A stretch of DNA of 64,000 bases from Asaia bogorensis. Its GTDB lineage: Bacteria; Pseudomonadota; Alphaproteobacteria; Acetobacterales; Acetobacteraceae. The translations under genes were made by a program, and so were the position numbers. The stretch spans positions 1-64,000 of the forward strand of contig CALQTN020000006.1 in NCBI GenBank assembly GCA_943333505.2, written 5' to 3'. Numbering within the stretch: the first letter of the stretch is position 1; every line of letters begins with the position of its first letter. This document shows, piece after piece, positions 51,992-54,629 of the stretch. The notes under the pieces are model-generated. The model had not been told where the DNA came from. It ran no database searches and saw only the letters and a list, made by a program, of their open reading frames with translations.

Positions 51992-52027
51992 GCATGACCG
52001 CGCCGATCAGCGGTCATCATGCTCTAT
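51992..52027. terminator. Type B hairpin with shortened left arm
   Basis: ATGACCGC, loop GCCGATCA, GCGGTCAT form the paired core, and the right arm continues CATGCTCTA as in other type B copies. The left arm lacks three bases, so the outer stem is disrupted. It lies between the permease and decarboxylase stops, and the decarboxylase TAG (52024-52026) is in the right arm. Confidence 0.7.
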
Positions 52028-53295
52028 GCGACCTGAAAAGACCCGGGCGGGCTGATGTCATTCGGGTTTTTGATCGCTGAAACCGTATAGCCAGGGGTTT
52101 GCAGCAAGGGTGCGTCGATCACCTCGACAATGCGGGCGCGGTCGAAGCCGTTGAAGGCGGTGCGCAGGCAGAAGCCGTAAGCGCCCAATTGGCCAAGCTC
52201 GATCCAGTCGCCTTCCCCGATATCCGCAGGCAACCAGAACGGGCCGGCCATCGCGTCGGCGCTGTCGCAGGTCGGGCCGAAGAAGCTGAACGGCTGGAGA
52301 TTTGCCTGGCTGAGGCCGCCGGGGCGCACCAGTCGCGCCGGAAAGCGGAAACCCAGCGCGCCGGCGTCCGACAGGCTGCCGAACACGCCGTCGTTCAGGT
52401 AAAGCCATTCGCCACGCCGCGCCTGGACCTGCACCACAACCGAGCCACCGGCTGCAACCAGCGCGCGGCCGGGCTCAGCCCACAGCTCGACAGTTTCCGG
52501 CAGGCCGAGCGCCGCGAAGCCCGCGTCAATTGCGGCGATGAACGCCCCCAAAGGCGGCGGGGTGATATCCGGATAGCTTACCGGAAAACCGCCGCCGATA
52601 TCGACGATGTCTACCGCGACCGACGCTGCGCGGATCGCCGCGCCCGCCACCTGCATTGCCCGGCCATAAGCCAGCGGATCGAGGCATTGCGAGCCGACAT
52701 GGAAGGATACCCCAAGCCGGACCGCCAGCGGACGTGCCGTGCGCAGCAACGCGGCCGCCGTTTCGGTATCGGCGCCGAACTTGCCTGACATATCGATCGC
52801 GGCGCCGCCGGCCGGCAAAGCGAGCCGCACGATGATGCCAAGATCGGTTGCATTGCCGGTTTCGACCAGAATCTTCGCCAGTTCATCAGCGGAATCGATC
52901 ACGAAATCCCGCACCCCGGCGTCGAAATAGGCGGCACGGATCGCCGAGCGCGCCTTGATCGGGTGCATGAAATGGATCGCCGCGTCGGCAAACATGCTGC
53001 GCACCAGGGCAATTTCGTTCGCCGATGCGCAGTCGAAATGGCGAACGCCACCTTCCCACAATGCGCGCAGCACGCCGGGTTCGGGGTTGCACTTCACCGC
53101 GTACATAACGGTCCCCGGAAAATCGTCGGTAAATTGGCGCGCGGTCGTCGCCAGCACTGCCGGCCGCAGGCAATGCACCGGCACGTCCGGATGGTCGGCG
53201 GCGATCACCGCATCGACGCTGGTCGCGGCAACCGGTTCCACGGCGATCGAGCGGCGGAGTGGGGAAACGGCATTGCGGAAGCGGGTGACAGACAT
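52024..53295 (-). CDS. Ornithine (type III PLP) decarboxylase
   Basis: A 423-residue PLP-dependent decarboxylase of the alanine-racemase fold, as in eukaryotic-type ODC. The PLP lysine is in YAVKCNPEP (about residue 69), with SFHVGSQC, IGGGFPVSYP, WAEPGRALVA (PLP phosphate site) and the partner cysteine in FGPTCDSAD. It makes putrescine from ornithine; lysine activity cannot be excluded by eye. GAGGA lies about nine bases before ATG 53295. A roughly 400-base structured leader precedes it, with agmatinase farther upstream in the same direction. Confidence 0.9.
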   Translation of the reverse strand: MSVTRFRNAVSPLRRSIAVEPVAATSVDAVIAADHPDVPVHCLRPAVLATTARQFTDDFPGTVMYAVKCNPEPGVLRALWEGGVRHFDCASANEIALVRSMFADAAIHFMHPIKARSAIRAAYFDAGVRDFVIDSADELAKILVETGNATDLGIIVRLALPAGGAAIDMSGKFGADTETAAALLRTARPLAVRLGVSFHVGSQCLDPLAYGRAMQVAGAAIRAASVAVDIVDIGGGFPVSYPDITPPPLGAFIAAIDAGFAALGLPETVELWAEPGRALVAAGGSVVVQVQARRGEWLYLNDGVFGSLSDAGALGFRFPARLVRPGGLSQANLQPFSFFGPTCDSADAMAGPFWLPADIGEGDWIELGQLGAYGFCLRTAFNGFDRARIVEVIDAPLLQTPGYTVSAIKNPNDISPPGSFQVA

Positions 53296-53299
53296 GGCA

Positions 53300-53690
53300 G
53301 CAATCCTCGGCGAACGAGCAACGCGGCGGCGCCATGGAAGGGCACACGCCGACAGAACAGGAACGAAATGGGTTCCGGCCGCACGCCAATAGCTGTGCGG
53401 TCAAACCCTAAGCGAGGATGCGCGGACTTCGCATCGCACGATGGCCAACATCAAACATACCCGATCCCTTAAGGACACCAGCCCATCTGGCTGGCTCGAC
53501 CGAAAAGGACGCGTTACGTCGTTGCTGTGGCCCCCTCGGGGGCCTCTCGGCCAGAACTGGCCTGCGGCACGTGCGATTGCGTCTTTAGCACCGGCTGACA
53601 AATCAGCGCGGACCGGCGGTATACGGCCACTCACCCCGCAGCGGAAATGCGGATTCACGACCCGTGCTGCGTTGTGGGCGCATGGGTTGG
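53300..53690 (-). ncRNA. speF-like structured leader of the ornithine decarboxylase gene
   Basis: A region of about 400 bases without a convincing long gene lies before the decarboxylase start. On the minus strand it contains at least five strong hairpins: GGCCAGTTCTGGCC (53549-53562), GGCCCCCGAGGGGGCC (53529-53544), CCAGCCAGATGGGCTGG (53478-53494), GATGCG with CGCATC (53417-53435) and CCGCAC with GTGCGG (just upstream of the decarboxylase). Size, position and gene fit the Rfam speF leader of alphaproteobacterial ODC genes. The family match is from memory, not a covariance search. Confidence 0.68.
53408..53458 (-). CDS. Candidate 16-residue leader peptide in the ODC leader
   Basis: Within the structured leader a short frame reads MFDVGHRAMRSPRILA and stops. 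It has AAGGGA about seven bases upstream of its ATG. It overlaps the GATGCG/CGCATC hairpin and ends just before the GGGTT...AACCC outer stem, so its translation would change folding. Enterobacterial speF is controlled by the ornithine-sensing peptide SpeFL; this peptide is a different sequence but sits in an equivalent place. Functional status is inferred. Confidence 0.45.
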   Translation of the reverse strand: MFDVGHRAMRSPRILA

Positions 53691-53714: not shown

Positions 53715-54629
53715 CTACAGGCCCGGCGCCGGAACATGATCATGCTCCAGCAACGCGAGATACTCCCAAACCACGGTCGCCGCGGCGAGCGCGGTAATCT
53801 CTGCCACGTCGTACGCTGGCGCCACCTCGACCACATCCATCCCGACGAAATCCACCCCGATCAGCCGCCGCAAAATCGCCTGCGCCTGCCACGATGCCAA
53901 TCCACCGATTTCCGGTGTGCCGGTACCAGGCGCGGCGGACGGATCGAGCACGTCGATATCGAAGCTGAGATAGGTCGGGTCTGTCCCGACGATCTTGCGC
54001 ACCCGACGGGCGATTTCGATCGGCCCCGACAGATGAACCTCCTCGGCTGGAATGATCGTGACGCCCTGGTTCCGGGTCCAGTCCCACACCGCGCGCTGCA
54101 CCGGCGACCGGATGCCGATCTGCACCATCCGCGCCGGGTCGATCAGGCCTTCGTTGATGGCATGAAAGAACACCGAGCCATGGCCAAAACGCTGGCCAAA
54201 ATTATCCGGCCACGTATCGACATGCGCATCGAAATGCACCAGCCCGATTGGCATCCCCAACCGCCGATGCAGCGCGCGTAGCAACGGCAGGGTAATGCCG
54301 TGTTCGCCGCCCAGCGCCAGCAAGTGACCAATGCCGGCCGCCTGGTCTTCGATCAGCTTCAGGCTTTGTGGAATATCGCCAAGCGCAATGGCGAAATCGC
54401 CAATATCAGACACCGATTTTGCCGCCGGCTCCACCCAGAAATGCGGATGGTCGCCATCGACCAGCATCCGGCTCGCCTGGCGGATGGCACGCGGTGCGTC
54501 GCGGGTCCCGGCGCGGTTGGTGGTGCCGAGATCGAGCGGGATACCGGCGATGCTGTAATCCGCCTCGGCATCGGTTGGCGACAACCCGAAAAAACCGGGC
54601 CCGGTGGCGAAAGTAGGAACCCCGGCCAT
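53715..54629 (-). CDS. speB: Agmatinase / ureohydrolase
   Basis: A 304-residue manganese ureohydrolase. Metal ligands are seen in LGGEHGITLP (His), HFDAHVDTW (D-x-H-x-D) and SFDIDVLDPSAAPGTGTPE (D-x-D). It would convert agmatine to putrescine and urea; guanidinobutyrase or a similar role is possible because the family is hard to subdivide. ATG 54629 follows the crotonase stop. It lies upstream of the ornithine decarboxylase in the same direction, so two putrescine routes are adjacent. Confidence 0.87.
   Translation of the reverse strand: MAGVPTFATGPGFFGLSPTDAEADYSIAGIPLDLGTTNRAGTRDAPRAIRQASRMLVDGDHPHFWVEPAAKSVSDIGDFAIALGDIPQSLKLIEDQAAGIGHLLALGGEHGITLPLLRALHRRLGMPIGLVHFDAHVDTWPDNFGQRFGHGSVFFHAINEGLIDPARMVQIGIRSPVQRAVWDWTRNQGVTIIPAEEVHLSGPIEIARRVRKIVGTDPTYLSFDIDVLDPSAAPGTGTPEIGGLASWQAQAILRRLIGVDFVGMDVVEVAPAYDVAEITALAAATVVWEYLALLEHDHVPAPGL

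Follow-up and report, generated by a model that had tools for sequence, protein, structure and literature searches.

Background and Overview of the Locus

Two RNA elements have been described upstream of ornithine decarboxylase (ODC) genes in Alphaproteobacteria. The speF element (RF00518 in Rfam) was reported in 2005 as a 5′ stem that carries a large insertion at its top, with ∼80 conserved nucleotides (nt) after it (Corbino 2005, PMC1273637), and a 2020 study of Bartonella treats speF and ar45 (RF02347) as separate and functionless (PMC7717549). The authors who described a spermidine riboswitch expect further classes of polyamine riboswitch to exist (PMC10853860). Here we analyze a decarboxylase leader from Asaia bogorensis, located within a window of 64,000 nt (the whole stretch of DNA analyzed: contig CALQTN020000006.1, positions 1–64,000), in which speB, a 419-nt gap, and the decarboxylase gene follow one another on the minus strand; all features given below lie on that strand. 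A first-pass annotation had assigned this leader, put at ∼400 bases with several strong hairpins, to the alphaproteobacterial speF class, and had seen in its 16-codon open reading frame (ORF) a diverged or independently evolved counterpart of the enterobacterial leader peptide SpeFL. Both the leader and the 16-codon ORF are confirmed as real, and the leader feature is broader than first reported. We lean, if only slightly, toward the reading that an ar45/speF-type module in the leader responds to polyamines and gates translation of the leader ORF, and thereby the decarboxylase.

Relationship of the Leader to ar45 and speF

Searches with cmscan returned nothing at E ≤ 1 for the 4 kb around the leader and, at E ≤ 10 for the leader alone, just one chance miRNA, with neither RF00518 nor RF02347 listed; RF00518 also had no match anywhere in the window's genome. 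The first-pass annotation had named the lack of a speF-model match as grounds for its refutation, and the scans indeed gave none; this absence reflects the reach of the Rfam model, not biology. For comparison, 80 relatives of the decarboxylase were fetched, and a relative was present in 48 of 60 neighboring genomes. Across ∼50 loci with the same speB–ODC order, the gap typically spans 320–420 nt and contains one conserved block, GACGC-n-CGCACGUGCC-(variable hairpin)-GCAACGACG-n-GCGUC-CUUUU, which is followed in the orthologous gaps by a second hairpin (CCGGCC..GGCCGG) and then by a Shine-Dalgarno (SD) sequence and ATG. The block was seen in Acetobacteraceae, Magnetospirillum, Nitrospirillum, Azospirillum, Telmatospirillum, Iodidimonas, and others.

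We trained a covariance model, R1, exclusively on 36 Rhodospirillales-type copies of this block. It recovered all nine RF00518-type ODC loci offered to it (L111, L113, L114, and L119–L124) with E-values from 7.6e-6 to 7e-3 per 232 kb, the weak RF00518 matches L115–L118 having been set aside. In all four of the loci that were scanned with Rfam (L111, L113, L114, and L120), the R1 match coincides with RF02347 and RF00518 starts 8–9 nt downstream. The RF00518 loci of other Alphaproteobacteria contain the same conserved segments, and in a 142-genome sample the four ar45 genomes were all speF genomes as well, with the two elements side by side. Because R1 lands exactly on ar45, which abuts speF, the two appear to be the halves of a single leader, and the 2005 description of speF fits ar45 plus RF00518 read as one element. 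A Magnetospirillum transcriptome study that scanned 5′ untranslated regions with Rfam lists neither ar45 nor speF, consistent with an Rfam blind spot, and we found no published link between ar45 and polyamine genes in the open literature searched.

Like RF00518, the window leader lies 5′ of a COG0019-type ODC gene in an alphaproteobacterium. On sequence grounds it is best filed as an Rfam-invisible copy of the ar45/speF leader, in which a diverged ar45 half is followed by a short upstream ORF (uORF). The class proposed at first pass was therefore right, with the support coming from R1 and none from the Rfam speF model, which has no match; the homology lies in the half that Rfam catalogs on its own as the small RNA (sRNA) ar45.

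Structure and Covariation of the Module

In the window, the ar45-like module begins with the 5′ strand of helix P1, GACGC (53579–53583), which pairs with GCGUC in a helix that covaries across Alphaproteobacteria. It continues into the P2 5′ strand CGCACGUGC (53567–53575), an invariant core that is near-invariant in sets of 36, 60, and 75 sequences and occurs in RF02347/RF00518 loci too. The variable P3 insert (53526–53566), here made of two hairpins (GGCCAG..CUGGCC and GGCCCCC..GGGGGCC), differs in length and covaries in relatives. It is closed by the other half of the invariant core, the P2 3′ strand GCAACGACG (53517–53525, conserved in the same sets), and by the P1 3′ strand GCGUC with its adjoining CUUUU (53503–53512, the CCUUUU part being 53508–53503). 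A further hairpin, HP2 (CCAGCC..GGCUGG), occupies 53477–53496.

Covariation was assessed in two sets of 60 and 75 distinct sequences, the second of which overlaps the training set of the model, with alignments fitted to the model, which favors the structure. Compensatory changes in P1, P3, and HP2 exceeded those in all shuffles (0 of 500 reached the observed value), and all five HP2 pairs covaried in both sets, while five of the seven P2 pairs never vary. When the structures were slid along the alignment, pairing dropped to 19–56%; these controls, together with new pair types (e.g., GC to CG at P1 of the RF00518-type copies), indicate that the covariation is not merely an artifact. Covarying P1, P3, and HP2 around an invariant P2 form the pattern of a recognition core. 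Plastoroseomonas-type loci (L007, L064, and L074) carry a minimal module without the P3 hairpin, with the predicted ODC start almost directly 3′.

The hairpins noticed at first pass do exist, in a leader whose overall folding energy is ordinary (z = −1.05; 13 of 100 dinucleotide shuffles fold equally well). We therefore rejected whole-leader folding energy as a sign of structure; hairpin strength by itself proves nothing. What raises the leader above chance is the recurrence of the 5′ block, SD, and start codon at the same place in ∼50 orthologous gaps, together with helices that covary in other genomes.

Distribution and Gene Company

Of 385 alphaproteobacterial genomes, 63 contain the module as judged by R1, and within a single order it occurs in 70 of 76. 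When R1 was run on 299 genomes sampled from the phylum, its matches were confined to the window's class. Copies number one to three per genome, and the window's genome holds a second one before its other ODC gene (C34:7060–7114). The genes 3′ of 81 copies, including that of the window, were ODC in 69 cases (two paralogue types), homospermidine synthase in seven, and speD-speE in one, the remainder being two contig ends and two other genes. Downstream identities were confirmed by NCBIfam for speD and speE and by solved homologues for homospermidine synthase. This company, not foreseen in the first-pass annotation, points to a candidate polyamine-responsive regulon. It also bears on the way ar45 is treated in the literature (PMC7717549), namely as an sRNA. 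If it were a genuine trans-acting sRNA, its gene would merely sit beside ODC. We consider this very improbable, given that the module stands on the same strand and immediately 5′ of polyamine genes of three types in 77 of the 81 copies, with one to three copies in a genome.

The other ODC paralogue of Acetobacteraceae (L017–L030 and L155) has a module without the U-tract, and a different conserved stretch, TTGGTCGCTGGTCC, follows several of these copies. The gene behind the copy in L154 resembles a glutamine amidotransferase and may be a further polyamine-related target. Alphaproteobacterial ODC loci also occur in L106 and L073, whose record titles (Mycobacterium sp. KBS0706 and Stygiobacter) look wrong.

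The Leader ORF and Its In-Frame AGU Codon

A SD and start codon stand 3′ of nearly every module. Among the 81 copies they open ∼60 short leader ORFs, seven main-gene starts, and five in-frame extensions, with none in five; in RF00518-type copies the module is not followed by an ATG, and the 3′ half known from speF takes its place. A single 5′ module joined to several 3′ arrangements is laid out like a sensor whose expression platform varies, as in an aptamer plus its expression platform. In L156, L159, L161, L167, L185, and L191 the SD and ATG of the module are apparently the ODC start itself, with no separate leader ORF, and the congener L158 has a uORF.

The ORF reported in the window is present as described: MFDVGHRAMRSPRILA, 16 codons at 53458–53408 (ATG TTT GAT GTT GGC CAT CGT GCG ATG CGA AGT CCG CGC ATC CTC GCT TAG), preceded by the SD AAGGGA at 53470–53465, whose spacing is conserved in relatives. 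Its start is kept as ATG, or as GTG in the Roseomonas-type group. A hairpin within it (GCGAUGCG..CGCAUC type; 53412–53439) is mostly paired in 27 Acetobacteraceae leaders with little compensatory change, and the support it gives is moderate. In a fresh order, all 27 uORFs retained start, frame, and end, at lengths of 32–42 codons. That the ORF is a chance open frame, as free residue change in Acetobacteraceae might suggest, is scarcely credible, since the lineages have in common a start codon that can switch from ATG to GTG, its SD, the placement and brevity of the ORF, and an in-frame AGU.

That AGU, a rare serine codon standing six codons ahead of the stop in the window (53426–53428), is enriched in frame across lineages. 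In 110 distinct uORFs, AGT occurred 80 times in frame vs. eight and eight times in the other two frames, and in otherwise unrelated leader ORFs (L001–L248) it stands 2–6 codons before the stop. Once the uORFs were clustered, an in-frame AGT fell among the final eight codons in 25 of 50 clusters, vs. an out-of-frame one in two of 50, making it the strongest outlier among all triplets. In the fresh order AGU was found in 27 of 27 uORFs, whereas AGT accounts for only 20 of the 506 serine codons counted in the longest ORF at these loci; hss-type uORFs and several others do not have it. The codon specificity speaks against a simple requirement for the residue, and the restriction to one reading frame against a simple RNA motif. 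The recurrence of AGU near the end of otherwise unrelated leader ORFs suggests that bacterial gene control includes a step at the level of the codon.

These observations bear on whether the encoded peptide matters. A SpeFL-like arrest peptide would sense ornithine or a polyamine as a nascent chain in the ribosome tunnel, stall, and alter downstream folding or Rho access. The conserved start, SD, and short length and the recurrent AGU near the stop agree with such a role, as does residue selection in some lineages: Iodidimonas-like leaders show 21 silent among 45 changed codons vs. 8.5 expected, and the uORF end of L135/L139 is under residue selection (GRENPLSSQ). In the window's own family, however, nearest-neighbor pairs of Acetobacteraceae uORFs differ almost evenly at codon positions 1, 2, and 3 (26/34/33 changes, vs. 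11/2/81 when a block of ODC is compared in these pairs), so that there is no residue-level selection and a SpeFL-type peptide is not supported there. An apparent RSPRIA motif in Acetobacteraceae was rejected as peptide conservation because it is conserved at the nucleotide and not the residue level. Since the sequences also differ wholly between lineages, the AGU is specific to the codon and not the residue, and some modules stand directly before the gene without a uORF, we consider an arrest peptide rather improbable as the explanation. The diverged or independent SpeFL counterpart envisaged for the window accordingly finds no support, its residues changing as freely as silent sites, and the alignment proposed for the short ORF bore out a conserved start, SD, and shortness and not conserved residues. 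An arrest-peptide role is possible, judging from their sequences, in the Iodidimonas-like and L135/L139 lineages. The Iodidimonas-like ODC leaders (L084, L085, L086, and L094) encode a strongly conserved 41–42-residue peptide (..DRGFWRFRFVVLDKHSP..) that is a good candidate.

Predicted Pairing of CCUUUU With the Leader-ORF Shine-Dalgarno Sequence

Immediately 3′ of P1 stands CCUUUU, a complement of the SD of the leader ORF, and in the fold of the window leader the predicted probability of their pairing is ∼1. Across clades this pairing averaged −6.2 kcal/mol, vs. −1.1 to −3.8 in control regions, and matched pairs were better than permuted ones (z = −2.5, vs. −1.8 to +1.3 for control regions; 80 distinct combinations) in a test that controls only partly for relatedness. 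Two other pairings were dropped. The uORF 3′ end AUCCUCG forms a perfect 7-bp match with the ODC SD CGAGGAU in the window; in 57 leaders, however, this match does no better than chance (median rank 0.43). The fold of the window leader also pairs the ar45 5′ strand (CGCAAUCGCACG) and the uORF hairpin; on inspection, relatives L031, L033, L038, and L047 do not preserve this complementarity.

The same CCUUUU doubles as the U-tract after a terminator-like hairpin (GACGTAACGCGTC-CTTTT, 53520–53508). An intrinsic terminator, with GACGU-AAC-GCGUC or P1 as its stem and the U-tract behind it, might close the module; ar45 would then be the terminated leader and the uORF mere downstream scenery. In Bartonella and Sinorhizobium, ar45 accumulates 5′ of speF as an RNA of its own (PMC7717549), which agrees with this, and the S. 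meliloti SAM-II riboswitch produces sRNAs likewise (PMC9373788). Attenuation seems to us somewhat unlikely nonetheless, as most Rhodospirillales copies have just four U's, the Acetobacteraceae ODC-B copies lack the U-tract, and the conserved SD-AUG and AGU would be left unaccounted for.

Proposed Mechanism

In the mechanism toward which we lean, the 5′ module (P1, invariant P2, variable P3, CCUUUU, and HP2) would be a conserved sensor standing before polyamine-synthesis genes, most likely responding to a polyamine or pathway metabolite, directly or via a bound factor. It would switch the accessibility of the first SD downstream, with the CCUUUU beside P1 able to mask AGGGA. In the window, the gated SD would start the 16-codon ORF, and translation of this uORF toward its stop, past the in-frame AGU near its end, would set the transcription or translation that reaches the decarboxylase, a passage of the signal that possibly involves Rho. 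The alphaproteobacterial SAM-II leader is a precedent for SD gating at the first AUG together with sRNAs from termination (PMC9373788). Generic features of riboswitches (a covarying fold, an invariant core, a variable 3′ platform, and coherent pathway genes) are present.

Several points weigh against this mechanism. The covariation signal is modest, P1 is absent from the predicted minimum-energy fold of the window leader, and some module copies lack the uORF or the U-tract. CCUUUU resembles the 16S rRNA anti-SD, so that some complementarity to any SD is expected; this resemblance and the partial control of relatedness make the evidence for the SD pairing moderate. Finally, in-line probing of the A. 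tumefaciens speF leader with six metabolites detected no binding (PMC1273637), homospermidine not being among those listed.

The negative probing result, like the short and invariant P2, would also suit a protein that reads the P2 core, with polyamine status acting through this RNA-binding protein and not through a metabolite. S. meliloti ar45 is reported, at second hand as cited in PMC7717549, to co-precipitate with Hfq. With Hfq binding being unspecific and no candidate protein identified, we judge a protein reader unlikely. A bolder extension of the metabolite-responsive mechanism, which we find plausible without favoring it, is that ar45 may be the sensor of an unrecognized, alphaproteobacteria-wide polyamine riboswitch that controls ODC, homospermidine synthase, and speD-speE via translation of a leader ORF with a codon-specific AGU checkpoint close to its stop. 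Homospermidine or another triamine absent from Corbino's list would be the candidate ligand, and homospermidine is the product of one of the target genes found here.

Other Features of the Locus

The upstream gene, speB (agmatinase; 53715–54629), scores above the cut-off for NF002564/TIGR01230, and its order relative to the decarboxylase is kept in ∼50 orthologous loci. The downstream gene (52024–53295) encodes a fold III, COG0019-type ornithine (or lysine/ornithine) decarboxylase with PF02784 and PF00278, and its best solved relative is the lysine/ornithine decarboxylase 2plj (2e-47). Its SD-like GAGGAU (53303–53308) is kept in relatives. A promoter scan of the leader found no consensus promoter; GTATAC, ∼36 nt 5′ of the module (53619–53624), is a weak −10-like hexamer, with CTATA/TATAA at about this place in aligned relatives. 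An 85-codon minus-strand frame across the leader matched no family.

Comparison With Known Systems

Enteric SpeF is a fold I enzyme and belongs to a different ODC family from the decarboxylase of the window. The SpeFL-speF leader of enterobacteria shares with the window a short ORF in a structured ODC leader; it differs in that the peptides show no similarity by eye and that the window's family shows no residue selection on the peptide, so for this lineage the comparison holds only as a loose analogy. The SAM-I-variant spermidine riboswitch (PMC10853860) follows the same polyamine-gene logic, guarding speB, speD, speE, and ldcC, in an unrelated RNA; Rfam scans found no SAM-I match in the window leader. 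The S. meliloti metA SAM-II leader (PMC9373788) is likewise alphaproteobacterial, controls a SD near the first AUG, and yields sRNAs by termination, with another aptamer and other genes.

The closest relatives are the two Rfam families. With RF00518, the window leader shares a position upstream of a COG0019-type ODC, a 5′ stem with a large insertion as described by Corbino, and HP2 with an AAGAGG/AAGGGA site at the same spot; the Rfam model covers HP2 onward (L111, 1501–1654), where the window has a uORF in place of a match. With RF02347 it shares the fold plan, the invariant CGCACGUGC and GCAACGACG, and the place upstream of ODC, whereas it falls below any reporting level of RF02347, has a shorter U-tract, and is read here as the 5′ half of a cis-acting leader where the literature has an independent sRNA. 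With the module standing ahead of polyamine genes of three kinds, what was an orphan motif becomes a defined regulon for which there are only a few candidate ligands. Our comparison joins the speF element of 2005 and ar45, both previously without function, as one leader and extends it to two groups in which the Rfam models are blind, Rhodospirillales and Acetobacteraceae.
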